Positions 45,831-60,056 of a DNA stretch of 64,000 nucleotides are shown one piece after another (within the stretch, counting starts at the first letter, position 1; every line of letters begins with the position of its first letter). The stretch is taken from positions 1,922,001 through 1,986,000 of the forward strand of contig CP018628.1 of NCBI GenBank assembly GCA_002271215.1, in the 5' to 3' direction. Source of the DNA: Lelliottia jeotgali. GTDB taxonomy: Bacteria > Pseudomonadota > Gammaproteobacteria > Enterobacterales > Enterobacteriaceae. The position numbers were made by a program, and so were the translations under genes. Under the pieces are notes generated by a model. The model worked only from the letters and a program-made list of their open reading frames with translations, had not been told where the DNA came from and ran no database searches.

Positions 45831-47000
45831 TTATCCCGGCATGACTTCCCGCTTCAGACCCGCCTTACGCGCCGTTACCGGCAGCAGATCCGCCGCCGCG
45901 ACGTACCCGTCCGGGTCGAGACAGCGGTTTAATTCCCGCGCTTTTGCCAGAATTTCTTCATCCCAGTAAACGCGTTTACGCTGATCGCCTTGCGTGGTGA
46001 GGATACATTCCACGTCGCCGTCGACGGCGCGATATTTTCGCCAGCTATTGGCCGGAACGGAAATCACCGAGCGCTCAGGCGCAATCACGCTGACTTCCTT
46101 GCCCGCCTGATTCCACGTCACCTCCAGCGTGCCTTTAAACACCATGATCACCTGCACGTCCGGGCACAAATGACGCCCGACCACATGCTCTGGCGCAAGG
46201 CGCAGCCATTCCACGGAGAACCCGTGCGGATTCACAATCGCTGGCGCGGCGTGGCGATCCTGCGAAATGCCGTAGCCAATCACCGGCGCAATTTCGCCAC
46301 CGTGACCCGGCAGCACGGAATCCAGCAGACCGTCAGCTGACCAGCGGCGTTCGTCCCCGGTCACCGCACGCTGGCGCATCTCTGCAACAGAATAGTGGCG
46401 CAGGGCGGCGATCTCTTCCGGCGGCAGCGGGGCTAACAGCTGTGACGCGTCCGGCAGCGTATCGCCCGTGTTGACGTCGAGCAGCATATTGTCTCTGCTC
46501 AGATACAGCCCGTATTCGCTGGCCGCCGCCAGAATCGACGGGTGCCAGATGATCCCCCCGGTGTTATTTCCGCCGAGCACCGTATAGACCATCCCGCAGG
46601 TCTCTTCTTTACTGACGTTGGTAAAGCCGCGGAAAATCCACGTCGGAACCGACAGAATGGCGGGCGCGCTGAACTCGGCTTCGTTTTCGCCGTTCGCCCC
46701 CCAGCGAAAACGCCACGTGCCTTCGTGAATCAAAAACACCTCCGCCGTGAAGTGCAGATGCAGGTTATTGGTCACGCCTTTCGGCATCGCCGCCGCGCCA
46801 ATGTTAAAGCCGTGTGGTTCAGGAATGTTCACCACCTGCGCCGATGACTGCGTCACGCCAGGCCCGATAAACGAGTAGTTCTGCTTCAGATGCGAGCCAG
46901 GCAGCTTGCAGTCAATGAACGCCAGATTGCAGGACACCATATCGTCCGGTGTGATAACGCGGGTTTTGGCCTGCGCCGGGGTAATCGATTGTACTTTCAT
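45831..47000 (-). CDS. Bicupin protein of a catabolic island
   Basis: 389 residues from MKVQSITPAQAKTRV (start 47000, SD AGGAG); the frame extends upstream into the aldolase gene but without support. Two cupin domains. The first has the metal motif LHLHFTAEVFLIHEGTWRF (HxH...E). The second, GRHLCPDVQVIMVFKGTLEV, has lost one His and is probably structural. It could be a dioxygenase, isomerase or decarboxylase. It is the last gene of a six-gene leftward operon with aldolase, hydrolase, SDR, HisD-like dehydrogenase and MFS genes, so it probably acts late in the same pathway. Confidence 0.75.
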   Translation of the reverse strand: MKVQSITPAQAKTRVITPDDMVSCNLAFIDCKLPGSHLKQNYSFIGPGVTQSSAQVVNIPEPHGFNIGAAAMPKGVTNNLHLHFTAEVFLIHEGTWRFRWGANGENEAEFSAPAILSVPTWIFRGFTNVSKEETCGMVYTVLGGNNTGGIIWHPSILAAASEYGLYLSRDNMLLDVNTGDTLPDASQLLAPLPPEEIAALRHYSVAEMRQRAVTGDERRWSADGLLDSVLPGHGGEIAPVIGYGISQDRHAAPAIVNPHGFSVEWLRLAPEHVVGRHLCPDVQVIMVFKGTLEVTWNQAGKEVSVIAPERSVISVPANSWRKYRAVDGDVECILTTQGDQRKRVYWDEEILAKARELNRCLDPDGYVAAADLLPVTARKAGLKREVMPG

Positions 47001-47011
47001 GTGTTCTCCTG

Positions 47012-47803
47012 TTAATAACCGGATGCACCCGTGGTCGGGGCGGATGTGCCGCGTGCCTGCGCGATGGCAACGCGTGCGGCACGGCCAAGCTGCATGACGT
47101 CGTTGGCGGGGGTGACAAACTGAAAACCTTGTTCGATGCGCAGTCGCGCCGCATCGCCGGAGGTGCAAAATATCCCCGCCAGTTTTTGCCTCTCGCGGCA
47201 GCGGTTGACCACCCGCTCAACGGCCGCGATCATGTCTGGATGCTGAGATTCTGCGCTGGCGCTGCCGGTAAGGGTGAGCGACAGATCGTTCGGCCCGATA
47301 AACACCCCGTCCAGCCCGTCGGTTGCCAGAATGGCGTCGAGATTTGCCAGCCCTTCGCGGGTTTCAATCATCGCCAGGGTCAGGATCGCCTGATTCGCGT
47401 GCTGCGGATAATCCGCACCGCCGTACAGCAAACCGCGTGCCGGGCCAAAGGAACGCACGCCGTACGGTGGATAGCGGCAGGCGGCGACAAAGTGCGCGGC
47501 CTGTTCGGCAGTCGAGATCATCGGGCAGATAATCCCGTACGCTCCGGCGTCGAGCATGCGCATGATCTGCGCCGGGTCGTTGTGCTGAACACGCACCAGC
47601 GGCACCGCCGGGGTGGCGGAGAGTGCTTGCAGCATCGTCAGGGCGCTGGCGAAATCGATCATCCCGTGCTGCAAATCCACGGTCACTGCGTCATAACCCT
47701 GATGGCCGACAATTTCCGCACTGTAGCTCGACGGTATCGCCAGCCAGCCGTTGATGATTGGCGTGTTTTCCTGAATCAACTCTTTGAGTTTATTACGTCG
47801 CAT
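47012..47803 (-). CDS. HpcH/HpaI-family aldolase
   Basis: A 263-residue class II (metal-dependent) pyruvate or oxaloacetate-type aldolase. GHQGYDAVTVDLQHGMIDF, QIMRMLDAGAYGIICPMIST, the metal-binding Glu in LAMIETREGLANLD, and FIGPNDLSLTL with the second acidic ligand are present. It would cleave a 4-hydroxy-2-oxo acid or the like to pyruvate and an aldehyde. Its 5' end overlaps the alpha/beta hydrolase gene by 11 bp, and the bicupin follows 11 bp later. Substrate unknown. Confidence 0.85.
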   Translation of the reverse strand: MRRNKLKELIQENTPIINGWLAIPSSYSAEIVGHQGYDAVTVDLQHGMIDFASALTMLQALSATPAVPLVRVQHNDPAQIMRMLDAGAYGIICPMISTAEQAAHFVAACRYPPYGVRSFGPARGLLYGGADYPQHANQAILTLAMIETREGLANLDAILATDGLDGVFIGPNDLSLTLTGSASAESQHPDMIAAVERVVNRCRERQKLAGIFCTSGDAARLRIEQGFQFVTPANDVMQLGRAARVAIAQARGTSAPTTGASGY

Positions 47804-48515
47804 TAAGAGACTCCTGAATCCACTGGCGCAGCGGCGGGGCGATTTCGTCGGGCGCTTCGAGCACCGCGAAATGTCCAGCGGTGTGCACGGTTATCCGTCG
47901 CGAGCGAACCGCACTTGCCGAGGCCAGTTGATGATGATGGGGCGTGCAGATCGGATCGTGCGCGCCGTTGATAATAATGATTGGGCATGAGAGCGCGGCT
48001 AGTGCCACGCGGTTATCCCGACGGGTGATGGCGATATCCGTTTGACTGGCAAAGGTATCGTGGCCGCTCTCTTCTGCCATCTGGCAGATAATTTCCCTGA
48101 GCGCCGGATCACCCAGGCGCTCGGGTGCAACATACTTATGCCACAAATTTGCAGACAGCCACGCCGTCAGCCCTTGTTCACGCGCAGCACTTACCGCGTC
48201 GCGTCGGGAAGGCGCATTTTCCGGCGCATCGGCGAGCGGATTCACCGAGATTAGCGCCAGTCCGGCCAGCCGCTCGGGGGCGTCGGCGGCCATTTGGAGC
48301 GCCACGATGGCCCCGAGAGAAAACCCGGCCAGCAGAAAACGCGGCGGCAGGTTTTGCAGCAGACGCCGTGCGGCCTGTGGTGCGGAATCTGAACCCGTCA
48401 GGCTGATACACATCACGCTGGAAAGCGCTAATTGTTCAACCAGCGGCTGCCATAGCCGGGCAGTGCAGAGCGTGCCGCCAATCAGCACCAGCGGCAGTTC
48501 GGTATTATCGAGCAT
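47793..48515 (-). CDS. Alpha/beta hydrolase
   Basis: 240 residues with the fold's typical order. Oxyanion strand LVLIGGTLCTARLWQPLVEQ, nucleophile elbow LLAGFSLGAIVALQMA (Ser in GFSLG), an acidic residue in IIINGAHDPICTP, and a late His in TVHTAGHFAVLEAP. Resembles 3-oxoadipate enol-lactonase/esterase types. May open a lactone or ester intermediate. Lies eight bases after the SDR stop. Confidence 0.82.
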   Translation of the reverse strand: MLDNTELPLVLIGGTLCTARLWQPLVEQLALSSVMCISLTGSDSAPQAARRLLQNLPPRFLLAGFSLGAIVALQMAADAPERLAGLALISVNPLADAPENAPSRRDAVSAAREQGLTAWLSANLWHKYVAPERLGDPALREIICQMAEESGHDTFASQTDIAITRRDNRVALAALSCPIIIINGAHDPICTPHHHQLASASAVRSRRITVHTAGHFAVLEAPDEIAPPLRQWIQESLNAT

Positions 48516-48523
48516 GACTTACC

Positions 48524-49288
48524 TCAGGTTGCCGTCCAGCCGCCGTCGACCAGCAGGGCGGTGCCGGTGATCATCGCCGCCGCGTCGGAGGCCAAAAACA
48601 CGACCGGCCCCATCACATCTTCGACGCGTCCGAGCCGCCGCAGCTTGATGTTCTCCAGCACGTAGCGGCGAAAATCGGGGTTATCCAGCGATTGTCGCGA
48701 CAGCTCGGTTTCGATAAAGGTCGGGCAGATCGTATTGACCCGAATCCCCGCATCGCCCAGCTCCAGCGCCATCGTTTTGCTCAATCCCTCCAGCGCAAAT
48801 TTTGATGCACAATAGACGCTGCGATTCGGGCCGCCGACGTGGCCCATTTGGGATGACACATGAATAATGGAACCGGCAATCCCTTCGTCGCGCATCCGCT
48901 GCGCCACCCGCTGGCTGATAAAGAAGGTGGCCCGCAGATTTAGCGTCATTACGGCGTCAAAATTATCTTCGCTCACCGTCAAGAAAGGCTCATGGCGGGC
49001 CAGTCCGGCGCTGTTCACCAGAATGTCAAAAGCGGGCAACTGCCCCAGCGCCGACTCGACGCTGGCGCTGTCGGTGATATCCAGCGCCAGCGGATGCAGC
49101 GTCAAACCACTTTCGCCCGCCAGCGCGGCGGCGTGTTCCAGCGTGAGGGGATCGCGCGCGGCAATCCACACCTGAGCGCCCGCCTGAGTGAGTGCCACGG
49201 CGCTGGCAAATCCCAGTCCTTTGGAGCCGCCGGTCACCAGCGCCCGTTTTCCCGTCAATGTGAATGAGGGTGTCTGCGGAAGCGTCAT
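48524..49288 (-). CDS. Short-chain dehydrogenase/reductase
   Basis: A 254-residue classical SDR. NAD(P)-binding GGSKGLGFASAVALT (about residues 20-34), LVNSAGLARHEPF, catalytic Ser in IHVSSQMGHVG, Tyr and Lys in VYCASKFALEGLSK. The FabG/gluconate-dehydrogenase-like C-terminus reads VVFLASDAAAMITGTALLVD. Likely oxidises or reduces a hydroxyl of the pathway intermediate. Starts three bases after the HisD-like gene's stop. Confidence 0.88.
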   Translation of the reverse strand: MTLPQTPSFTLTGKRALVTGGSKGLGFASAVALTQAGAQVWIAARDPLTLEHAAALAGESGLTLHPLALDITDSASVESALGQLPAFDILVNSAGLARHEPFLTVSEDNFDAVMTLNLRATFFISQRVAQRMRDEGIAGSIIHVSSQMGHVGGPNRSVYCASKFALEGLSKTMALELGDAGIRVNTICPTFIETELSRQSLDNPDFRRYVLENIKLRRLGRVEDVMGPVVFLASDAAAMITGTALLVDGGWTAT

Positions 49289-49291
49289 GAA

Positions 49292-50614
49292 TTACACCTT
49301 TTCCCGTACGGGCGCAGGCGTGGCGTAGGGCACGTCGGTATTTCCGTAACGACGCACGCGAATGTTGGCCTGTTCCGCATGTCCGGCAAATCCTTCCAGC
49401 AGTGATAAACGCGAGCAGTAGCTACCGATTTCGGCGGTCGCTTCGTCGCTGAGGACTTTTTGCCAGGTGCAGGTTTTCATAAATTTGCCGACCCACAGGC
49501 CGCCCGTGTAACGCGCTGCTTTTTGCGTGGGAAGGGTGTGATTGGTGCCGATCACTTTGTCGCCATAGGCCACATTGGTGCGCGGGCCGAGGAACAGGGC
49601 GCCAAAGTTGGTGAGATTTTCGAGGAACCAGTCGTCGCGGTCGGTCATCACCTGCACGTGCTCGGAGGCAATGCTGTCCGCTTCAGCCAACATTTCGTCG
49701 TAGCTGTCGCAGACAATAATTTCGCCGTAATCCTGCCAGGACTGGCGGGCCACGTCGGCGGTTGGCAGTTTCTCCAGCAGGCGCTCGATTTCTGTCAGCG
49801 TTTCTTTTGCCAGTTTTAGCGAGTTGGTCAGCAGAATGGCAGGCGTGGTGACGCCGTGTTCCGCCTGACCCAGCAGATCGGTGGCGCAGATTTCCGCATC
49901 GACGGTGTCGTCGGCAATCACCAGCGTTTCCGTCGGACCGGCGAACAGATCAATGCCGACGCGGCCAAATAGCTGGCGCTTGGCTTCGGCCACATAGGCG
50001 TTGCCCGGCCCGACCAGCATATCAACCGGGGCCAGGGTGTCGGTGCCGAGCGCCATCGCGCCAATCGCCTGAATCCCGCCGAGGGCGAAGATCTCCGTCG
50101 CGCCCGCCATTTTCTGCGCGGCGACGATCGCCGGAGCCGGTTCGCCGCCAAACGGCGGGGCGCAGCTGATGATGCGCGAACAGCCTGCGACGTTGGCGGT
50201 GATAATCGACATATGCGCCGAGGCCAGCAGCGGATATTTCCCGCCCGGCACATAGCAGCCAACGGCGTTTATCGGGATATTTTTATGGCCTAGGATTACG
50301 CCGGGGCGGGTTTCAATTTCCAGGTCACGCAGGCAGGCTTTTTGCGCGCGGGCAAAATTAAATACCTGCTCCTGAGCGAATTCGATATCGTGAATATCCT
50401 GACGACTGAGCCTTTTCATGCAGCTGTTTATTTCTGCGTCCGACAAGCGATAATCACGGCGGTCGTAATTGTCGAATTTAATCGATAATTCACGAATCGC
50501 TTTATTCCCGCGTTTTTCAATATCCGCCAGAATCAGCTCAACGGTTTCGCGTATTTGTCGCTGCGCTTCCTGACGTTCCTGCACCGGTTTACTCGATTTA
50601 AGTTGATAAGCCAC
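49292..50614 (-). CDS. HisD-like zinc dehydrogenase 1 (catabolic paralogue of histidinol dehydrogenase)
   Basis: 440 residues with a GTG start at 50614 preceded by AAAGGAG. All HisD catalytic positions are present: zinc ligands Gln250, His253 (GQAEHG), Asp352 (GDKVIGTNH) and His412 (GHAEQ), and the acid/base pair Glu318-His319 (SEHVQ). HisD oxidises an alcohol to a carboxylate with two NAD+. HpsN, a relative, oxidises 2,3-dihydroxypropane-1-sulfonate. Here there are no histidine-synthesis genes; the context is catabolic. A polyol or diol-like substrate is inferred. A second homologue lies in the opposite arm (55532). Confidence 0.85.
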
Positions 50615-50688
50615 GATGTTCTCCTTTCATATTTGAAATGACAGATGCCCTCCCGGCGAGCTGGGATAAATATCACTAAGCGGTTAAA

Positions 50689-51924
50689 TTATTCTCGCGC
50701 GGAGGCGAGGGAACGGTTTGCCGATATTTCTGCTGGCAGACTGGCTTTACGTGAATGAACCCAGCGCACCGAAAGCGGGGTGGCGATAGCGGCAATAATC
50801 GAAAGCCCCGCAATAAACAGATACCCGGATGAGAGATTAATATGCTGCATCATCACGCCCATGATCACTGGCCCGGCAAACATACCGCATGAATAAATGG
50901 TCTGGAATAATCCCATGCGGGTGGACTGTTCATCTGAAGAGGTGTTGACCACGCTCAGCGACATAAATGCCGCGAAAGCCATACCAAATGAGAAACCGGC
51001 CAGCGCCTGCAACAGATAAATCAGATACAGATTGCTGGTAAACGGAATGCCAAACGAGGAAACCACCTGCAGCAGAATGCCCAGCACGGCGGTTTTGACC
51101 AGCCCAAGCCGCTGATAAAACACCGAGCTGCACAGGGCAATTGCCAGAGCGTAGAAGATCAGGTGAATGTTACTCAGCAGAGTTAGAATGCCAGCCCGCG
51201 CGCCCAGCTGTTCAGCGTAGATAGGTGTGAGCGTGTCGCGGGTGGCGAACGGCACCAGAATCACGATGGTCGCCAGAATGCCAATCAGCCAGACGGAGCG
51301 GTCGGCCAGCTGGAGTTTCGCGCCTGCAATACAGGCTTTCAGAGACGGAGCCTTAACCGGATCGTGAACGTCGCGGATGCGGGTGGTCAGGAACAGGGCC
51401 AGCAGGGCGGACACACAGGAGACGAAAAATGCGATGTTGTTCGCAAAATAGTGAATCAACACGCCGCCGATGCAGTTGCCAAGAAACACCCCGATAGGGC
51501 CTGCCAGCGCCAGCAGAGCGACCGCTGCCGGGGCTTCTTTGCGATCAAAATAGCGGATAAACAGAATGTTATACAAAACCCAGGTGGCTGCGGTGACGCC
51601 ATCGGCGGCTTTCGCCAGATACAGGGTGATGGAATTTGGCTCCAGCCAGGCAATCGGCCAGGCGACAATCGGCAGCACCAGCGCTATCTGGATAAATATT
51701 TTGCGGCTCTTCACCACGTCAGAAATGATCCCCAGCGGGAAGCGAATCATCAGCGTCGCCAGACCGCTGGCGCCCATGATGATGCCCATCACCTGCGGTT
51801 CAATGCCCTGATTGATCATCATCGGGGCCAGAAACGCATCGATACTGTGAATACAGATATAAAACAACACGCTGATGATAAAAAACAGCCGGGCTTCCGG
51901 GCGGCGTAACAGTGCTCGAAACAT
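50689..51924 (-). CDS. Major facilitator superfamily transporter
   Basis: 411 residues from MFRALLRRPEARLFFIISVL (start 51924, SD AAGAGGT); an upstream in-frame ATG would add 16 residues. About 12 membrane helices. The MFS loop 2-3 region MIRFPLGIISDVVKSRKIFI is near residues 60-80. First gene of the leftward catabolic operon, 74 bp before the HisD-like gene; presumably imports the substrate. Confidence 0.88.
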   Translation of the reverse strand: MFRALLRRPEARLFFIISVLFYICIHSIDAFLAPMMINQGIEPQVMGIIMGASGLATLMIRFPLGIISDVVKSRKIFIQIALVLPIVAWPIAWLEPNSITLYLAKAADGVTAATWVLYNILFIRYFDRKEAPAAVALLALAGPIGVFLGNCIGGVLIHYFANNIAFFVSCVSALLALFLTTRIRDVHDPVKAPSLKACIAGAKLQLADRSVWLIGILATIVILVPFATRDTLTPIYAEQLGARAGILTLLSNIHLIFYALAIALCSSVFYQRLGLVKTAVLGILLQVVSSFGIPFTSNLYLIYLLQALAGFSFGMAFAAFMSLSVVNTSSDEQSTRMGLFQTIYSCGMFAGPVIMGVMMQHINLSSGYLFIAGLSIIAAIATPLSVRWVHSRKASLPAEISANRSLASARE

Positions 51925-52030
51925 GGTTGTGAACCTCTTAATAATTAATGGGTTATAACCAATCAAGTACAACGTTTACCGGTTCATTCCCTCTGGTGAC
52001 GACCCAATTCGCCCGGTACAATTGACGGTG

Positions 52031-52135
52031 TGCATACGTATTCAAAAATTGAAGTTACGAAAAGGTTTCAATTTTGTAAAGGTACAAGATCACCATTGTG
52101 AAAAAAATAATTTAGACGGTTGCATACGCATGCAA
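52031..52135. promoter_or_regulatory. Two LacI-type operators in the divergent promoter region
   Basis: TGCATACGTATTCA (52031-52044) and TTGCATACGCATGCAA (52120-52135) are palindromes sharing the core GCATACG, with a central CG typical of LacI-family sites. They lie 89 bp apart between the MFS and lacI-like starts, suited to loop repression of both arms. The remainder of 51925-52239 holds no gene. Confidence 0.75.
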
Positions 52136-52239
52136 AGATGGTGTAAGACTAAAAAGCACTCACTTTCCAGGCGCTCCTGACGGGGCGATTGTGATACAAA
52201 ACCTGAATGTGGCAGTGACAGGATAAGGAACCCAGGGTA

Positions 52240-53310
52240 ATGAAGCGTAAGACTTTTGCGGCGGTGACCAGCCAGCAGGTGGCACAGTTAGCAGGTGTAT
52301 CTCAGTCAGCGGTATCGCGGACTTTCACGCCGGGGGCGAGTATTTCGCCCGCCACGCGTGAAAAAGTGCTCAAGGCGGCACGCGAGCTGGGCTATCGGCC
52401 AAATGCGATTGCCCGGTCGCTCAATACCGCCCGGTCACGCATCATCGGCGTGGTGATCTCTTATTTCGATAATCAGTTTTACCCGCAGGTGCTGGAAGCG
52501 TTGGCGCAAAAACTGGATACCCTCAACTATCACTTGCTGTTGTTTGTCGGTGACAGGGACGGCAACGTGGACCGGATTTTTGACCAGATCATGCAGTACC
52601 GCGTGGATGGCATTGTGCTGGCGTCGGTCACGCTGTCGCTGGATCTCTCCCAGGAGTGTCTGGCCGCCGGCATTCCGGTGGTGCTGTTCAATCGCAGCGA
52701 AGAGAGCGGCATGGCATCGAGCGTCAACAGTAATAACGAAGCCGCTGCGCGCCAGATCGCAGAATTTCTGCTGGCCGGAGAGCACAAACGCTTCGCCTAC
52801 GTCGGCGGCGTGGCGGACTCGTCGGTGAATATCGCCCGTCAGCGCGGGTATCTTGAGACGCTCGCGGAACACGGCGTCACAGACGTACAGGTGGTGAATG
52901 GCAACTATGACGCGCAGCAAACCACGCGCGCGGCGTATTCTCTGTTCACTAACGCACCCGCACCGGACGCCATTTTTGTCGCCAACGACCATATGGCGGT
53001 GACGGTGATGGACGTGGCGCGTTACGAATTTGGTCTGCGGGTGCCGGAAGACGTGTCGATCATTGGTTACGACGATATTGGCCCGTCGGGCTGGCCGTCT
53101 TATGCCTTAACGTCGGCCTCCCAACCGGTGGAGGCGATGGTGACGGCAACGGTAGAGTTACTGATGAAGCAAATCGACAGCGGCAACATCGAGCCAGAAC
53201 AAATTACGCTGCCCGGTATGCTGGTGGTGCGCCACTCGGCGCGGCGTCCGCGCACCGGTGTTATCGAAAAAGACGGTTTATCTCTGTTCCAGCCTCAGGA
53301 GGTCAAATGA
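52240..53310 (+). CDS. LacI-family regulator of the catabolic island
   Basis: 356 residues. N-terminal helix-turn-helix TSQQVAQLAGVSQSAVSRTF (about 10-29) and hinge LGYRPNAIARSLNTARSRII, then a periplasmic-binding-like effector domain (about 65-330) with FVANDHMAVTVMDVARYEFG and VSIIGYDDIG. Likely represses both divergent operons until the pathway substrate or intermediate binds. Its stop overlaps the next gene by four bases. Confidence 0.92.
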   Translation: MKRKTFAAVTSQQVAQLAGVSQSAVSRTFTPGASISPATREKVLKAARELGYRPNAIARSLNTARSRIIGVVISYFDNQFYPQVLEALAQKLDTLNYHLLLFVGDRDGNVDRIFDQIMQYRVDGIVLASVTLSLDLSQECLAAGIPVVLFNRSEESGMASSVNSNNEAAARQIAEFLLAGEHKRFAYVGGVADSSVNIARQRGYLETLAEHGVTDVQVVNGNYDAQQTTRAAYSLFTNAPAPDAIFVANDHMAVTVMDVARYEFGLRVPEDVSIIGYDDIGPSGWPSYALTSASQPVEAMVTATVELLMKQIDSGNIEPEQITLPGMLVVRHSARRPRTGVIEKDGLSLFQPQEVK

Positions 53311-54278
53311 GCAGATTGCCGGGGTTCAGCCCCCAGTTCGACTCCATTCAGCAATTTATTTTGACTCTCACCCACGTGGTGTGGGAGCAAAAGGACATCG
53401 GCCAGCTGGCTGACTTTTACGCCACGCCAGTGGTGTTTATCACCCCGGAAAAACAGCTCACTGAACTGTCGCAATTTATGCGCCTGACGCTGGAGGCGAT
53501 GCACAGTTTTCCGCAACGCTCGGTGCTGACGGAAGATATTCTTTGCAGCCACACTCCGGGTGAAGAGTATTACGCCGCCCAGCGTACGATGGCCTCGATT
53601 CGCCACCAGGGGGAAGGGTTCTTCGGAGCGCCGACCGGGAACAATGTTTGGGTGCGCACCTGGGCTGACCGAATCTGCGCTGACGGCGTGGTTCGCCAGG
53701 AATGGTTGCTTCAGGATCGGGCGGCGATAGTGTCGCAGCTGGGATTGGATGTGCGCGAGTTTGCCCGCAATCTTGCCGCCACCCAGCAGCAGCTCGGCAT
53801 CCAGCCAGAAGCGGCGGAAACCCTTGACGCGCGCTGGTCGGGCGGGCCAGAAGGTGATGATATCGATGGGCCGCTGGCGGGCGTGGTTGAGCGCTATATG
53901 ACGATGTGGGCTGGCGGCAATGGCGGAACGGTGCCGGGGTTGTATCATCCCGCCGCCACGCTATACGCTCCGGGGCATCACGTCGCCACCGGCGAGCAGG
54001 AGATCGGTGCCTGGCTTTCCGGCTATCGCGCCTCGTTTGCGGACAGCGAAACCCAGCTCCACCATCTGATCGTGCGCAAAGACGTGAATGAACCGGTGCG
54101 CATTTCCCTGCGCTGGTCGCTGCTCACCTGGCATGACGGTTACGGTAAATTTGGTGCGCCGACCCGTAAACCGGTTTCAATTACCGGTATTACTCAGCTG
54201 GAATTACGCGATGGTTTAATTATTCGTGAATATTTAGGTATTGATGAATTAGCTATCTGGTCTCAGGTAGTGAATTAA
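53307..54278 (+). CDS. Tandem SnoaL/NTF2-like protein 1
   Basis: 323 residues containing two NTF2-like (SnoaL) folds. Repeat A (about 15-150) ends FFGAPTGNNVWVRTWADRIC...QEWLLQD; repeat B (about 195-320) ends KFGAPTRKPVSITGITQLEL...REYLGID. The shared motif GAPT...(D)G...(R/E)W/Y...D is the active-site wall of SnoaL cyclases and hydrolases. Translationally coupled to the LacI gene. It is 111 bp upstream of a second such protein. No signal peptide. Function unknown; could be an isomerase, dehydratase or epoxide hydrolase-type enzyme. Confidence 0.75.
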   Translation: MSRLPGFSPQFDSIQQFILTLTHVVWEQKDIGQLADFYATPVVFITPEKQLTELSQFMRLTLEAMHSFPQRSVLTEDILCSHTPGEEYYAAQRTMASIRHQGEGFFGAPTGNNVWVRTWADRICADGVVRQEWLLQDRAAIVSQLGLDVREFARNLAATQQQLGIQPEAAETLDARWSGGPEGDDIDGPLAGVVERYMTMWAGGNGGTVPGLYHPAATLYAPGHHVATGEQEIGAWLSGYRASFADSETQLHHLIVRKDVNEPVRISLRWSLLTWHDGYGKFGAPTRKPVSITGITQLELRDGLIIREYLGIDELAIWSQVVN

Positions 54279-54389
54279 TAAAGGGGAGGTTCGCCTCCCG
54301 TCACATTTTTATTAACGCTGTGTACGTTCATTTCTCCATCCATTCCGGGTGCGGGAACTTATTGTCTGAAAATAGATGCAGGAGGTCAC

Positions 54390-55532
54390 ATGTCTTCAAC
54401 TGAAGCAACAAATAAAGCTCCAGCCGTACCCGAGAAAAACAGCTCAAAACCTACGCGAGACGAACCGGTATTACAGGTCGAACGTCGCGACTTTATTGAT
54501 TTAGTGCCGGAAAAACGCCCGCGCGCCCAATCATTAAGAGGCTTCGACGACTGTTATACAGACATTGTCGATTATATCGTTCGCTGTACCCATAAAATTT
54601 GGGATGAGCGCGATGTGGGATTAATTTATACCCATTACACCCACAACTGTGTTTTATATAATGCGCTGGGAACGCTGTATAACCGCGAACAGGTGGTGCA
54701 GGATACGCTCCAGCGCTTAATTGCTTTCCCGGAACGTCGCGGCATGGCGACCCAGGTTATCTGGAACGGTAATGACGTCGATGGTTTTTACACTTCCCAT
54801 CTGGTGACCGGCAGCGGACGTCACACCCAGTTCAGTCATCTTGGCAAGCCGACCAATCGCACTTTCGTTACCCGTACCGTCGCCGACTGCATGATCCACG
54901 AGAACAAAATTTATCGTGAGTGGGTGGTGAGCGACAATATGTCGATGATGAAACAGTTGAGCCTGGACACCGATGAAGTCGCCTTTAACATGGCGAAAGA
55001 GCAGTTTGATAAAGGCTTCCGCGTCACCGATATCGGCGAGAATGGCCGGATGCTTGGCCAGTATCCGCCGGATGTGGCCTGCGATGTCTCTATCGCCCAT
55101 ACCGACACCGAAGAGCAGCTCCTGCGCTGGCTGCATGAGATTTATAACCGCCGGATGTTGGGCAAAATCAAAGAGATTTACGCCCCGAATGTGCAGTGGC
55201 ATGGCCCATTAATGAAAGAGCTGTACGGCACGGCGGCGGTGACGCACCAGACGCTGGCGCTGATTGGCATGATCCCGGATGGCGCGTGGCTCCCGCAGCA
55301 TATCTGCTCCAATCCGTGCGACGAGGGCGGCGTCAAAGTGGCGGTGCGCTGGATTATCGAAGGCCATCATCTGGGCTACGGCGAGCTGGGGAAACCGACC
55401 GGTGAACGCCTGTTCGTGATGGGGATGTCCCATTACCACATTATCAACGGCAAAATCGTCGACGAGTGGGTGGTGTATGACCATCTGGCGCTGCTGGCGC
55501 AGATCAAACTCGGCCAGATGGAGGACGCGTAA
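54390..55532 (+). CDS. Tandem SnoaL/NTF2-like protein 2
   Basis: 380 residues. A disordered N-terminus (about 1-50, rich in Lys, Pro, Glu) is followed by two SnoaL repeats. A (about 55-200) ends HLGKPTNRTFVTRTVADCMI...REWVVSD; B (about 235-370) ends ELGKPTGERLFVMGMSHYHI...DEWVVYD. The repeats are more alike than those of protein 1. SD GGAGGTCAC before the ATG at 54390. Its stop overlaps the second HisD-like gene's start by one base. Perhaps the two SnoaL proteins form a heteromer. Confidence 0.75.
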   Translation: MSSTEATNKAPAVPEKNSSKPTRDEPVLQVERRDFIDLVPEKRPRAQSLRGFDDCYTDIVDYIVRCTHKIWDERDVGLIYTHYTHNCVLYNALGTLYNREQVVQDTLQRLIAFPERRGMATQVIWNGNDVDGFYTSHLVTGSGRHTQFSHLGKPTNRTFVTRTVADCMIHENKIYREWVVSDNMSMMKQLSLDTDEVAFNMAKEQFDKGFRVTDIGENGRMLGQYPPDVACDVSIAHTDTEEQLLRWLHEIYNRRMLGKIKEIYAPNVQWHGPLMKELYGTAAVTHQTLALIGMIPDGAWLPQHICSNPCDEGGVKVAVRWIIEGHHLGYGELGKPTGERLFVMGMSHYHIINGKIVDEWVVYDHLALLAQIKLGQMEDA

Positions 55533-56842
55533 TGTCAGCTCAGTCTATTACCGAACAGGTGCGCTGGATCAAGCGTCCTCAGGGTCAGGACGCCCAGGCC
55601 GATCGCTCATTGACGGATAAAGTGAGCGCGATTATTGAGCGCGTGAAAGGTGAGGGTGACAGCGCGCTCAGGGCTTTTTCACAGCAGTTCGACAAAGTGG
55701 TGCCGGAGCAATTTGAAGTAACGGCGCAGGAGATTGAAACCGCGCTGAGGGAACTCGATCCGCAAACCCGACGCGACAGCGAATTTGCGATTGCTCAGGT
55801 GCGCCGTTTTGCCCAGGCGCAGCTGGCGACCATGCAGCCGCTGGAAATCGAAACCCTGCCGGGCGTGCATCTCGGGCATCGTATAATTCCGGTGCAAACC
55901 GTCGGATGTTACGTCCCTGGCGGGCGCTATCCAATCCTTTCTGCGCCGGTGATGTCGATTGTTCCGGCGACGGTAGCGGGCTGTGAGCAGATTATTGCCT
56001 GTCTGCCGCCGGGTGCACATCCGGCGATGATTGCGGTGTGTCATCTGGCGGGCGCACATCGAATTTTCAAAATTGGCGGTGCGCAGGCGATCGCGGCGAT
56101 GGCCTGGGGGACTGAAAGCGTTCCGGCGGTGGACAAAATTGTCGGGCCGGGCAATGCCTTCGTCAATGAAGCCAAGCGCCAGGTGTTTGGCAAAGTGGGC
56201 ATTGACGCCCTGGCCGGGCCGAGCGAAATCTTCACCGTGGCCGACGACAGCGCCGATCCGCGCATTCTGGCGGCAGATTTACTGGCGCAGGCCGAGCATG
56301 ACGTTCATACCCGCGTCGGGCTGGCGACCACCAGCCAGGCGATTGCTGAAGGTACGCAGAGGGAGATCCAGCGTCAGTTAAGCTCGTTGCCAACGGCGGA
56401 AACAGCAGGTGAGGCGTGGCGTCGGCAGGGTGAAATCGTGGTGTGTGACACGGAGGAGCAGCTGATTGCCTTCGCGGATCACATAGCGACGGAGCATCTG
56501 CAGGTACATACCCGCGATCCGCACGGCACGGCGGCGAAGATCCGCAACTACGGTTCGCTGTTTATTGGTCAGAACGCCAGCGTGGTGTTCTCGGATAAAT
56601 GCTGCGGGACCAACCACACCTTGCCGACAATGGCAGCGGCGCGTTACACCGGCGGACTGTGGGTGGGAGCGTATGTGAAAGTCTGTACTCATCAATGGAT
56701 TGACGAGCAGGGCATCGCAGCCATTGCAGAACCAGCGATTCGCCAGAGCCGCACCGAGGGTATGCAGGGACACCGCCGTGCGGCGGAAATTCGCCTCCGG
56801 CCAGGGGAGATTGATGCGATTACCTCGGGGATGAGAGACTAA
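55532..56842 (+). CDS. HisD-like zinc dehydrogenase 2
   Basis: 436 residues. HisD catalytic residues are conserved: Gln253 and His256 (AQAEHD), Glu321-His322 (TEHLQV), Asp355 (SDKCCGTNH), His414 (GHRRA). It shares the CYVPGGRYP, GGAQAIAAMA and VGPGNAFVNEAKRQVFG blocks with the paralogue at 49292, but is clearly diverged from it. It is last in the rightward arm. With the paralogue it suggests two sequential or alternative alcohol-to-acid oxidations. Confidence 0.85.
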   Translation: MSAQSITEQVRWIKRPQGQDAQADRSLTDKVSAIIERVKGEGDSALRAFSQQFDKVVPEQFEVTAQEIETALRELDPQTRRDSEFAIAQVRRFAQAQLATMQPLEIETLPGVHLGHRIIPVQTVGCYVPGGRYPILSAPVMSIVPATVAGCEQIIACLPPGAHPAMIAVCHLAGAHRIFKIGGAQAIAAMAWGTESVPAVDKIVGPGNAFVNEAKRQVFGKVGIDALAGPSEIFTVADDSADPRILAADLLAQAEHDVHTRVGLATTSQAIAEGTQREIQRQLSSLPTAETAGEAWRRQGEIVVCDTEEQLIAFADHIATEHLQVHTRDPHGTAAKIRNYGSLFIGQNASVVFSDKCCGTNHTLPTMAAARYTGGLWVGAYVKVCTHQWIDEQGIAAIAEPAIRQSRTEGMQGHRRAAEIRLRPGEIDAITSGMRD

Positions 56843-57044: not shown

Positions 57045-58655
57045 TCACTCTTCCAAAAACGGCAATCGACGACGCGCGCGCGACGCACGTTGCGTTATCG
57101 CTTTCGCCATCGCTTCACCGATTTCTGCGCACACGGTCAGACCCTGAACGAAGGGCTGATCGTGCATCAGATAGGGCAACGCGCCGAAAGCGATGCGTCC
57201 ACGCACGCTGTCGGGCGCAAGCAGCGTGTAATCTTCGCTGACGTCCGGGATCTCATCCCCGTTTTCCTGTAACTGATGGCGCAGGGTCGGGAACGGCAGG
57301 TCTTTCGTTTTCAGCGGTTTTTGCCCTCTGGCATCAATAAACAGATCAAATTCAACCTTTTTACCGTCGAAGACAATCACCGTCCGGTTCTCCTGCACGT
57401 CCATTTCATACTCTGCCCCCAGCGACAGGACGCTAATAATCCCCGCTTCGCGCAGCGCCAGCAGACGACGAATCGACTGAGAAGGAATGGCCGCGTAGTT
57501 GTCGATGAAAATACGGGAAAGCCCGCCGTCGAAGCGCTTTCGATCCTTGTCGGTCAGATGCGGAACAATTTCCTGCACCACTTCATGCATTCGCAGAATG
57601 GTGTAGCGCCACGGCACCGTGCGTTTGTCGCGCTTGTTGCGCTCGACTTCATCGAGATTGGTTTGCGCCCAGCTGAAGGGATCATGTTTGTGGCGTTCGG
57701 CGAAGTAGGCGTCATGGAAACTGTCGGCGTCCAGCGCTGTTAAGGCGATGGAGGCGCTCCACTGCGGATCAGCGAGCTCAAGTTCCTCAGCCATCAGGCT
57801 GAAAACGCGATCCAGCAGGCCGTCCGACCCGGCGGTAATCTCTTTTTCGATCGCCCGTTCCGTTAAGATGCTTAAAGGTTCATAAGGCAGTGGGCAGTAA
57901 AAATCCGCTTCCGGCAGAATGCCCGAGCGGGACATCAGCACCATGTTGAGCGCTTCGCTACCTTCGTCGAGCCTGAATTCAACGGGCTGGTTTTCCGGCT
58001 CGATAAAGTCACCGTGCTGAATGGCGACCGCCATTGCCGCGTCCAGTCCGCTAAGCGAGGTGCCCATAATGCCGATACGACAAGCGTCGATTTTGGCTTC
58101 CATCAGCCCTGACCACGGGCTTGGGAAGTATGAACGGGTCGACTCGTCGTCGTCCGGCCAGACGTGCCCGGTAGCTATCACGGTGAGATCGTAAATTGCG
58201 GGTTTCGCACGGTTCTTCGCCCAGACGCTGACGCCTTCGGGCGTAGCTTCCAGATCTGTGACCTGGCAGGATTCCTGCACGTTGACGTCAAAACCGAGCT
58301 GTTTTGCCTGACCGATCAGCTGCAAAAACTGGTCGCGATAATACTCGCCTAACAAAATGCGCGGCAGGAACTGACGGTCGTGAAGCGAGGATTTCTCCAC
58401 GCCGTAGCGGGCCAGATGCGCGCTGCTTTGGGTGCGCAGCCAGTCGAGGTAAGTGGAAAAGAGTGGGGGAATTTCGATACTGGCAATATTCGCCAGCATC
58501 ATCCGCGAGTTGTCTTCATCGCTGTAGGGCATTCCTACGCCAGCCTCTTCGGCCTGCTCGTAGATATCGATACTAAATGGCGTCTTATTTTTTAGCAGCG
58601 AGAAAAGGGTGTAAATCCCCGTAGGTCCGGCGCCGATAATCGCAATTCTTTTCAT
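57045..58655 (-). CDS. FAD/NAD(P)-binding protein
   Basis: 536 residues. N-terminal dinucleotide motif IAIIGAGPTGIYTLFSLL (residues 3-20), and a second GIMGTSLSGLDAAMAV (about 196-211) typical of FAD/NAD(P)-binding proteins of the NAD_binding_9 type (HpyO-like). The C-terminal end contains DARGQKPLKTKDLPFPTL. Substrate not identifiable. It faces the catabolic island across the repeat and is followed upstream by a regulator gene, so it may belong to either module. SD AGGGAACG. Confidence 0.75.
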   Translation of the reverse strand: MKRIAIIGAGPTGIYTLFSLLKNKTPFSIDIYEQAEEAGVGMPYSDEDNSRMMLANIASIEIPPLFSTYLDWLRTQSSAHLARYGVEKSSLHDRQFLPRILLGEYYRDQFLQLIGQAKQLGFDVNVQESCQVTDLEATPEGVSVWAKNRAKPAIYDLTVIATGHVWPDDDESTRSYFPSPWSGLMEAKIDACRIGIMGTSLSGLDAAMAVAIQHGDFIEPENQPVEFRLDEGSEALNMVLMSRSGILPEADFYCPLPYEPLSILTERAIEKEITAGSDGLLDRVFSLMAEELELADPQWSASIALTALDADSFHDAYFAERHKHDPFSWAQTNLDEVERNKRDKRTVPWRYTILRMHEVVQEIVPHLTDKDRKRFDGGLSRIFIDNYAAIPSQSIRRLLALREAGIISVLSLGAEYEMDVQENRTVIVFDGKKVEFDLFIDARGQKPLKTKDLPFPTLRHQLQENGDEIPDVSEDYTLLAPDSVRGRIAFGALPYLMHDQPFVQGLTVCAEIGEAMAKAITQRASRARRRLPFLEE

Positions 58656-58692
58656 TCATCGTTCCCTTGTCCGATTCCTTAGGATGCTGACG

Positions 58693-59337
58693 CTAATATT
58701 TGGCCGGGAGCTTATTCACTTTAATCAATCTGCCCTCGTTCATTTCAACATATCCCCCCGTTTTCAGCTCTGCCAGTATTTTTAAGATCCCGCTGCGGGA
58801 TAAATTTGTTTTTGCACGGATATATTTTTCAACAGTAGTGCTGGCGCGAAATTCTTCGGTTTCGGTCATCAGAACCTGCAACTGATAACGAATAATTTCA
58901 TAGGCAGAAGGAGCGCTGTTCAACAGATTGTGATTATAAACCTTACCAAAGATGCCGCTGATATGAGTGACCAGCGTCTCCATGAGGTTTTGCTCACGAA
59001 TGATGTCATAAGCACGCTCAACCTCTAAACAGGCGACTTGACACATTTCCAGCGTTTCTATCCAGGAATCGCGAATAGTGGGCTGATGCATGTCAGCTAA
59101 CCCAACGACGGCCGGCGCGTAGATTCGGGTCAGTATCAAACCGTCGGAGCTACGGTGAAATTCCGTGGTGCCTTCAAGCAGAAGATAACAGACAGATACG
59201 CCCTCAATTTGCAGATAAAGCCTTTGCTTTGGAGGATACGTTTGCACAGTTGTGTACGGAAGTAAGGCATCAATTAATTTCTCGGACACAGGAGAGGCGC
59301 GGTTAAAGGGAGTCGGTGGCTTATCAGTGTTACTCAT
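58693..59337 (-). CDS. IprA/YaiV-type winged-helix regulator 1
   Basis: 214 residues. A cNMP-binding-like beta-roll N-terminal region (about 20-110, QRLYLQIEGVSVCYLLLEGT), a connecting helix, and a C-terminal winged helix (about 165-210) ending GYVEMNEGRLIKVNKLPAKY. It resembles E. coli IprA (YaiV), which ends GNYIEMNKGKLISINRLPSEY. No CRP-type cAMP-binding motif is evident. About 57 bp separate it from a paralogue upstream. May regulate the FAD gene, fimbriae or both. Confidence 0.78.
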   Translation of the reverse strand: MSNTDKPPTPFNRASPVSEKLIDALLPYTTVQTYPPKQRLYLQIEGVSVCYLLLEGTTEFHRSSDGLILTRIYAPAVVGLADMHQPTIRDSWIETLEMCQVACLEVERAYDIIREQNLMETLVTHISGIFGKVYNHNLLNSAPSAYEIIRYQLQVLMTETEEFRASTTVEKYIRAKTNLSRSGILKILAELKTGGYVEMNEGRLIKVNKLPAKY

Positions 59338-59393
59338 TATCGTGTCCTGTCTTCAATGCCGGATGACCCGTACATCAGAGAGTATACACGCTG

Positions 59394-60056
59394 TTAATAT
59401 TTCAATGGCAGATGGCGAATCTCAATCAGAATGCCCTTATCCATAATGATGTAACCGCCGGTGCGTAGCTCGGACAATATACGCATCGTTCCGCTTCGCG
59501 ACAGATAGCTCCTGTCGATGATGTAGTTTGCTGCGGTGATGTGCAGGCGAATATTGTCCGGTTCGCCGATTAATTCCATCAACTGGAAACGAATGATGTC
59601 ATAGGCCGACATTTGGGTAATCGCCATGCAATGGTCGTATACCCGCCCCGTGGTATATATCACCAGATGCGAAAGACTCTCCCAAAGATCGTCTTTGGCA
59701 ATAATTTCATTGGCGAGTGCCAGCGGCACCTGGCCCACGCAGCATTCGTCGAGGGTGCGGATATACATATGCTCTTCGTTTGAGAGCTGGTTACTGATTC
59801 CGAAAACAAACGGGGTTGATTCAGAATTCAAAACCATTCCGTCGCCGCGACGGTGCAGGGCGACACTGCCTTTATAAAGCAGGAAGCAGTAGCGAATATT
59901 TTCTTCTGTGTAACGAATAACGGCACCTTTGGGATACATCACTTCTGTCGAGAAAGGCTGGAGATGTAGCAAGATCCTTTCTATGTGGTTCAAGGGCTTA
60001 TGCGTTGAAAATGTATAGCCGCTGGCAAGCCCATCGAGAGACATACGCGTATTCAT
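59394..60056 (-). CDS. IprA/YaiV-type winged-helix regulator 2
   Basis: 220 residues, paralogous to the preceding gene product along its whole length: KGAVIRYTEENIRYCFLLYK, SAYDIIRFQLMELIGEPDNI, SYLSRSGTMRILSELRTGGY. SD AGGTG. Lies divergent from the fimbrial operon, with a 488-bp palindrome-rich region between. I infer it controls the fimbrial genes and itself. Confidence 0.78.
   Translation of the reverse strand: MNTRMSLDGLASGYTFSTHKPLNHIERILLHLQPFSTEVMYPKGAVIRYTEENIRYCFLLYKGSVALHRRGDGMVLNSESTPFVFGISNQLSNEEHMYIRTLDECCVGQVPLALANEIIAKDDLWESLSHLVIYTTGRVYDHCMAITQMSAYDIIRFQLMELIGEPDNIRLHITAANYIIDRSYLSRSGTMRILSELRTGGYIIMDKGILIEIRHLPLKY

Follow-up and report, generated by a model that had tools for sequence, protein, structure and literature searches.

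A putative LacI-controlled catabolic island in Lelliottia jeotgali with two HisD-like dehydrogenases and a recurring bicupin-hydrolase-aldolase core

What might a bacterium degrade with two HisD-like dehydrogenases, two SnoaL-family proteins and an aldolase encoded around one LacI-family regulator? The question is raised by an island at positions 45831 to 56842 of a 64,000-nucleotide stretch of Lelliottia jeotgali DNA (contig CP018628.1 of assembly GCA_002271215.1, positions 1,922,001 to 1,986,000 of the forward strand; hereafter the window), whose host genome is a single contig of 4.60 Mb. The initial annotation had placed ten genes here in two divergent arms, and as an observation this is confirmed: all ten open reading frames (ORFs) are intact, with Pfam matches, in order, to Cupin_2, HpcH_HpaI, Abhydrolase_6, adh_short, Histidinol_dh, MFS_1, LacI, SnoaL/SnoaL_2 (twice) and Histidinol_dh, the families it had named. 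We think it somewhat probable that the island is a catabolic regulon, repressed by LacI and induced by its substrate, whose central arm works as a line beginning with the first dehydrogenase, HD1; we infer each reaction, the order of the steps, the inducer and the binding of LacI to its sites. The genes, and the palindromes between the arms, are these:

45831..47000, minus strand: bicupin, 389 amino acids (aa), core gene (ORF; Cupin_2, 31 bits)
47012..47803, minus strand: HpcH/HpaI aldolase of SwHKA type, core gene (Pfam; 46% identity to Swit_5035)
47793..48515, minus strand: alpha/beta hydrolase, weakly PcaD/BioH-like, core gene (Pfam, NCBIfam)
48524..49288, minus strand: short-chain dehydrogenase/reductase (SDR), travels with HD1 (Pfam; SDR match in 23 of 24 HD1 loci)
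49292..50614, minus strand: HD1, HisD-like dehydrogenase 1, GTG start, motif G-K-Y-P-L (Pfam; Glu-His and Asp-Lys kept)
50689..51924, minus strand: major facilitator superfamily (MFS) transporter, 411 aa from ATG 51924 (ORF, Pfam)
51948..51963, no strand: third palindrome, ATGGGTTATAACCAAT, partly conserved (palindrome search)
52031..52044, no strand: operator-like palindrome O1, TGCATACGTATTCA, between the arms
52120..52135, no strand: operator-like palindrome O2, TTGCATACGCATGCAA, 90 bp from O1, between the arms
52240..53310, plus strand: LacI-family regulator (ORF, Pfam)
53307..54278, plus strand: SN1, double SnoaL/NTF2-domain protein, 323 aa (Pfam: SnoaL 21-145, SnoaL_2 194-307)
54390..55532, plus strand: SN2, double SnoaL/NTF2-domain protein, 380 aa (Pfam; predicted structure)
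55532..56842, plus strand: HD2, HisD-like dehydrogenase 2, motif G-R-Y-P-I (Pfam; 47% identity to HD1)

The bicupin start was taken as 47000 and that of the MFS transporter as ATG 51924, not TTG 51972; the Pantoea dispersa orthologue of the transporter is 1239 bases long. Starts had been described as closely spaced or coupled in both arms, and they are: spacings within the arms run from -11 to +111 bases, which is operon-like (leftward: bicupin-aldolase +11, aldolase-hydrolase -11, hydrolase-SDR +8, SDR-HD1 +3, HD1-MFS +74; rightward: LacI-SN1 -4, SN1-SN2 +111, SN2-HD2 -1).

The HisD-like dehydrogenases HD1 and HD2

The closest solved relative of both dehydrogenases is HpsN (8v35), the dihydroxypropanesulfonate (DHPS) 3-dehydrogenase of Cupriavidus pinatubonensis, a member of the same family (PMC11382572) that makes a zinc- and NAD-dependent, four-electron conversion of alcohol to acid. 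Alignments of HD1 and HD2 retain both the Glu-His of HpsN (Glu318-His319) and its Asp-Lys pair (Asp352-Lys353), in keeping with the earlier description of intact catalytic residues; across the sequences compared, duplicates included, the pair was kept in 162 of 167, the other five of which were not read. HpsN and HisD are told apart by one loop, G-R-Y-A/S-H in the former and G-S-A-P-L in the latter (PMC11382572), and here this loop resembles neither. Among 170 distinct HD1/HD2-type sequences, 165 carry G-[KR]-[YF]-P-[LIM] (98/100 HD1-type and 67/70 HD2-type), and of the five exceptions three are incomplete frames, one is the biosynthetic HisD and one, L165, is a HisD-like protein at 37%. The sulfonate-reading His126 of HpsN is replaced by Leu, Ile or Met with a Pro before it, and the motif also differs from that of biosynthetic HisD, a separate gene for which, with G-G-S-A-P-L, is present in the same genome (G000:C1:2856423). 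As far as sequence can tell, this marks out HD1 and HD2 as a putative third subfamily of HisD-like dehydrogenases beside HpsN and HisD. Because Glu-His and Asp-Lys are kept and His126 is replaced, metal, NAD and acid-forming chemistry should persist while the grip on sulfonate would be lost.

The initial annotation had linked these enzymes to HpsN and DHPS. With the diagnostic His absent from both, that link fell, and degradation of DHPS or other sulfonates was rejected on the HD1/HD2 motif; we regard it as very improbable. It would account for HpsN as nearest solved relative, and the SDR of the island belongs to PF13561, the family of HpsO, whose structure 8wwf came last of the 60 SDR structure matches listed. 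Unlike the HpsN system, however, the island holds no sulfolyase: neither this nor a PF00107-type gene was found by Pfam among the ten genes, neither the flanks nor other parts of the genome having been searched.

The core triad and the OtnK module

To judge from sequence comparison, the smallest recurring unit is a bicupin, an alpha/beta hydrolase and a pyruvate-type aldolase of the SwHKA kind. The aldolase is closer to SwHKA (E ~1e-67) than to HpaI or GarL (1e-48 or weaker). It would share its final retro-aldol step with the pyruvate-type aldolases HpaI, GarL and 2-keto-3-deoxy-L-rhamnonate aldolase and the RraA-like HMG/CHA enzymes, but reaches only 191, 164 and 138 bits against curated cut-offs of 369, 407 and 441 for the first three. 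We take Swit_5035 of Rhizorhabdus wittichii RW1 to be SwHKA itself, going by organism, family and length. On plasmid pSWIT02, Swit_5033-5036 encode an SDR, a hydrolase, the SwHKA-like aldolase and a bicupin, so that the enzyme has the same kinds of neighbours there; the difference is that no HisD, SnoaL or LacI is annotated in the 24 kb stretch. SwHKA converts pyruvate analogues, hydroxypyruvate included, and the accessible part of that biocatalyst study names no natural pathway (PMC10099721).

In the N-terminal cupin of the bicupin, H81-x-H83-x3-E87 is invariant in 24 sequences. The AlphaFold model (mean predicted local distance difference test score, pLDDT, 86.8) has a bicupin fold, and among the fold matches listed only general bicupin proteins appeared, the nearest being oxalate decarboxylases, vicilins and quercetinase YxaG. 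Identity to quercetin 2,3-dioxygenase YxaG and oxalate decarboxylase is ~9-12%; of a quercetinase-type metal site the His-x-His and Glu are seen and the fourth His is not, and fold alone is not decisive. No acetylacetone dioxygenase was among the 50 matches listed, which is no evidence against such a likeness. The hydrolase weakly resembles the BioH methyl-ester esterase (47 bits, cut-off 207).

The triad occurs without HD1, in the stretch examined, at Swit_5034-5036 of pSWIT02 and in two genomes that have TRAP carriers (G054, G207). Roseomonas OT10 (L143, outside the count of bicupin loci below) is no such case, since its plasmid record begins between the triad and HD1, which are ~6.5 kb apart. 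The triads of Thioclava, Ensifer and Vibrio pelagius lie beside otnK and an otnC-type aldolase, sharing gene runs with the threonate/erythronate pathway OtnI-OtnK-OtnC, whose OtnK/OtnC module converts 3-oxo-tetronate to dihydroxyacetone phosphate (PMC12540250, accessible part).

HD1 and OtnK did not occur together. Across 45 bicupin loci, 24 had HD1 only, 6 OtnK only, none both and 15 neither (Fisher p 0.007; the loci are not independent), and no OtnK-family gene was found in the genome of the window. These loci came from draws at the order, class and phylum levels plus five named plasmids, the window and SN2-anchored loci not being counted. In the order draw, neighbourhoods were taken for 10 of 18 bicupin genomes (not G000, G342, G112, G140, G238, G268, G316 or G361), and in the class and phylum draws for every genome not already met. 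Counted as 'neither' were L165, whose HisD-like protein (37-39%) has another motif, and the weak half-length cupin loci L176-L179, which contain no other core gene. All six OtnK loci have an HpcH/HpaI aldolase and none an RraA-like one; the 24 HD1 loci have RraA-like (12) or HpcH/HpaI (9) aldolases, one locus having both and four neither in the stretch. MetE-like genes occur in 16 of these 24, and two to five SnoaL-family matches in 22.

We suggest that the OtnK/OtnC module is seen only without HD1 because HD1 would shift the retro-aldol product to an oxaloacetate-type acid. With HD1 present, the second fragment would be an oxaloacetate-like acid of the tricarboxylic acid cycle type; with HD1 absent, the CH2OH would be retained and the fragment would be 3-oxo-tetronate, needing OtnK and OtnC. 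Two genomes, G1077 (L160/L161) and G1079 (L158/L159), each carry an OtnK-type and an HD1/MetE-type cluster at separate places, which suggests two related substrates. The DctP protein of one HD1 cluster (L124) shares 54% and 52% identity with its counterparts in two triad clusters (L133 and L134), so all three may import a similar acid.

Spread of the gene set, its arms and its regulator

Of 3473 candidate proteins, 1278 were relatives of SN2 at E<=0.001 (120 listed), and such relatives were confirmed at 315 stretches of a collection in which each of 84,980 species is represented by one genome; the best 80 of the 315 were analysed. The initial annotation had proposed a search for the ten genes as a conserved neighbourhood: all ten occur in 21 of 30 Enterobacterales-type loci (L029-L057 and L062), and most of the families recur beyond them, in Alphaproteobacteria, other Gammaproteobacteria and one Deinococcus; the bacteria with much of the set include inhabitants of soil, plants and the sea. 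The nine loci without the full set are L037, L038, L041, L051, L052, L054, L055, L056 and L062; L038 is a short contig, and L055 and L056 stop at the locus edge. On a Pantoea dispersa megaplasmid all ten are found in unchanged order, with an amidase gene in addition. Within the order, SN2 relatives were found in 16 of 394 genomes and the bicupin in 18 (E<=1e-20), the 16 all lying within the 18. Among 30 genus genomes, a sample that may be drawn more widely than the host genus, HD1 was present at >=90% identity in 8, all 8 of which have HD2; one fragmented genome had HD2 only, and another had a relative of HD1 at 66%. A megablast query with 49292-53310 had no match among 20,395 E. coli records. 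In L062 (Pantoea sp. Eser, a stink-bug symbiont) several island genes are split or missing in the ORF calls, as in a decaying copy.

The 50 further loci are mostly from Alphaproteobacteria. In clusters at 40% identity they contain the HisD family (46), LacI (38), the bicupin (28) and the SDR (28), with a UgpC-type ABC ATPase (20), an amidase (18), an RraA-like protein (18) and also a MetE-like protein as additional families, in gene orders that differ from that of the window. The type of transporter swaps between MFS, UgpC ABC, TRAP and SSF while the enzymes stay. Loci from other families of the order, whose hosts are probably marine, have HD1, SDR, LacI, bicupin, hydrolase, HpcH/HpaI aldolase and two to five SnoaL-family proteins, together with SSF or TRAP carriers, MetE-like genes and some TonB receptors; HisD-family members in these genomes are HD1 and the biosynthetic enzyme only, save one more HisD-like gene (G269) and short fragments (G282). 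A family met in the phylum draw (f241), taken as Rhodobacteraceae by its likeness to named loci, repeats ABC - short SnoaL - HD1 - SnoaL - SDR - LacI - SnoaL - bicupin - MetE - hydrolase - RraA, and in Deinococcus sp. QL22 the cupin, hydrolase and aldolase are accompanied by HD1, SDR and LacI as well as by sugar ABC genes and four ester cyclases.

The ten genes had been treated as one indivisible unit, which did not hold up: the arms are modular around a core of cupin, hydrolase and aldolase. In Klebsiella michiganensis the left arm stands alone with LacI: HD1, SDR, MFS, hydrolase, aldolase and cupin are present, SnoaL and HD2 absent. Much the same right arm plus MFS (SN2 87-88%) is carried by L051 and L052, in which the left arm is otherwise missing; these contigs bear the names Chryseobacterium sp. 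18061 and Citrobacter sp. 18056, which suggest mixed or misnamed assemblies. Such cases, and stretches with HD2 and SN2 but no HD1 (L070, L080, L085), would be expected if the arms were separate pathways for two substrates that share only a regulator. Against this, 21 of the 30 Enterobacterales-type loci have both arms, Devosia and Rhizobium loci have them too with the genes differently ordered, and there is a series of 625-655 aa proteins in which an alpha/beta hydrolase is fused to SN2 (P0008, P0009, P0018, P0057, P0097 and others). These fusions tie the front end to the core. We consider separate pathways unlikely.

The two tandem SnoaL genes are present as described, although each product holds two SnoaL domains, not one. 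SN1 and SN2 are 23% identical, and the assignment of SN1 comes from Pfam only. The SN2 model (mean pLDDT 84.7) consists of two repeats with the same helix/strand order and matches IdmH, SnoaL2 and ChaU with target-normalised template modelling (TM) scores of 0.70-0.82, as expected of a SnoaL/NTF2 fold; its 50 listed fold matches were general SnoaL and limonene-epoxide-hydrolase folds only. Thirteen of the 30 Enterobacterales-type loci have an amidase gene beside the set.

Two operators shared by the arms had also been proposed. What we find is a conserved pair of palindromes between the arms: 21 of the 30 Enterobacterales-type loci have both sites upstream of lacI, 88-90 bp apart, and 26 have at least one, as expected for a LacI regulator with paired operators; they are putative operators that LacI would bind. 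In the whole genome the exact motif TGCATACGNATNCA (0 mismatches) occurs only at O1 and O2, and with one mismatch there are 15 matches compared with 7 for a reversed control. A two-mismatch search within the window was at chance level: it gave 4 sites where 1.93 were expected, and 16 of 100 shuffles gave at least as many.

The GC content of the island (0.576) is slightly above that of the window (0.545), and proteins under the name Lelliottia aquatilis match its bicupin at 98% identity. On the left lies a carbonic anhydrase gene (PF00484; 45154-45789) and on the right, at 57045-60056, a gene for an FAD-NAD(P)-binding protein (PF13454) and, on the minus strand, a tandem pair of regulator genes that resemble each other (the first PF15977). 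A relative of the flanking 536 aa protein is found at the same place in L. nimipressuralis (L029).

Proposed pathway and candidate substrates

In the regulon that we favour, the MFS carrier would import a hydroxyl-rich, sugar- or cyclitol-like compound, and a front end of SN1, SN2, HD2 and, in other hosts, the amidase would trim a larger, probably nitrogen-bearing precursor. HD1, as a Zn/NAD four-electron dehydrogenase, would oxidise a hydroxymethyl group beside a C-OH to the carboxylate, the SDR would adjust a second hydroxyl, the bicupin would open or isomerise an enolised dicarbonyl and the hydrolase would cut an ester, lactone or beta-diketone. The SwHKA-type aldolase would then split a 4-hydroxy-2-oxo acid into a pyruvate-type acid and a second carbonyl compound. 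The interpretation given with the initial annotation is partly supported: the comparative data agree with import, primary-alcohol oxidation, SnoaL steps and cleavage by an aldolase, but do not support a DHPS link or an indivisible unit.

Several observations weigh against this scheme. HD1-type enzymes (~70% identical) also occur in gene contexts without the core triad (L007, L008, L136, L137, L138), beside a permease and an AmpC-like gene, GMC/TPP genes, arylsulfatase/acyl-CoA genes, or enolase-like and branched-chain ABC genes. The HD1 sequence alone therefore cannot fix the substrate, and the subfamily probably serves several pathways. OtnI is present in 5 of 6 OtnK loci, which points to 2-oxo-tetronate and not directly to 3-oxo-tetronate; 15 of the 45 bicupin loci lack HD1 and OtnK alike, and 5 of the 24 HD1 loci have no hydrolase in the stretch taken. 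The amidase of the relatives is missing from the genome of the window, where one 36% partial match was the only hit. The usual fourth His ligand of the bicupin is not conserved in the 24 sequences, so that even the class of reaction given to it here is tentative.

As to the compound itself, an unbranched sugar acid, polyol or aryl-glycerol is possible though rather unlikely. HD1 would yield an aldonate that the SDR would turn into a 2-oxo-aldonate, from which the aldolase would release hydroxypyruvate and an aldehyde. LacI and the UgpC-type ABC proteins suit sugars, and the nearest solved DctP proteins (4p47, 7bbr, 4p9k/4pak, 4pdh and 4nq8) are ones we take to be sugar-acid, erythronate or pantoate binders. 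It is hard to see, however, what the SnoaL proteins, bicupin, MetE-like protein and amidase would do in such a route, and replacement by an RraA-like enzyme suggests a ketone, not an aldehyde, as product. The acceptance of hydroxypyruvate by SwHKA among its pyruvate analogues also fits such a substrate (PMC10099721, accessible part). Pantothenate and the classical sugar pathways were rejected because they would leave most of the enzymes unused.

The alternative is a compound of the gadusol, 4-deoxygadusol and mycosporine family, which we put forward as a proposal, not a result, and consider doubtful. The SnoaL proteins and amidase would strip the amino-acid parts, HD1 would oxidise the ring CH2OH beside a tertiary OH, the bicupin, acting like a beta-diketone dioxygenase, would open the methoxy-enolone to a methyl 2-oxo-ester, and the hydrolase would remove methanol. 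The aldolase would release pyruvate and oxaloacetate where HD1 is present, or pyruvate and 3-oxo-tetronate from gadusol where it is not. It is the compound class we know to combine a C(OH)CH2OH branch, an enolised diketone, an O-methyl group and amino-acid parts. It would explain the exclusion between HD1 and OtnK and the RraA-like substitute, an aldolase of the HMG/CHA family that fits a tertiary-alcohol substrate. TRAP carriers suit an acidic enol, the MetE-like genes could be demethylases, and the repeated SnoaL matches in HD1 loci and the weak BioH likeness of the hydrolase are in line with the route. Two HisD-like enzymes and an amidase could suit mycosporine-glutaminol, which carries alcohol and amide groups. 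This fungal compound is named in PMC10057719, and in PMC3083659 action on shinorine and porphyra-334 by Vibrio harveyi is the only bacterial conversion given, both within the parts accessible. Some bicupin hosts come from a red alga (Roseibium algicola) or a coral (Ruegeria sp. SCSIO 43209). Hosts are mixed, though, with Sinorhizobium the largest group (15 of 52 plasmid records with bicupin matches), and the argument is purely chemical; we know of no enzyme of such a breakdown route. OtnI is left unexplained, LacI regulators usually sense sugars, and the island has no glucosidase. MetE-like and hydrolase genes often occur together, so that a methyl-esterase role is not needed everywhere. In the literature searched, reviews included and in their accessible parts, no paper on bacterial genes for gadusol or mycosporine catabolism was found.

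The initial annotation could match no described pathway, and a full-text literature search, with most subscription papers outside its reach, recognised none either. Histidinol, SnoaL and HpcH do not occur in the accessible main text of a paper on LacI-family regulons (PMC4052901). In NCBIfam at E<=0.001 the bicupin, SN1 and SN2 had no match, and among the matches listed for the other seven proteins (for the SDR, the best 25 of 232) only the broad hisD model TIGR00069 scored above its cut-off. The regulon is apparently undescribed, widely shared and built from known families. Since SN2 relatives occur at 315 stretches and the gene set has no match in the literature searched, the breakdown route of a natural compound may be unknown, one whose consumers would span enterics, rhizobia, Devosia, Rhodobacterales and Deinococcus. 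The crystallised aldolase SwHKA gains a conserved set of genomic partners, and the comparison makes the substrate question directly testable. It is an unlikely outcome that the regulon will prove to be the first genetic system to degrade gadusols, mycosporines and mycosporine-like amino acids; if it did, these compounds, which shield algae, corals, fish eggs, fungi and cyanobacteria from UV light, would be broken down to pyruvate and oxaloacetate (or 3-oxo-tetronate) for central metabolism.

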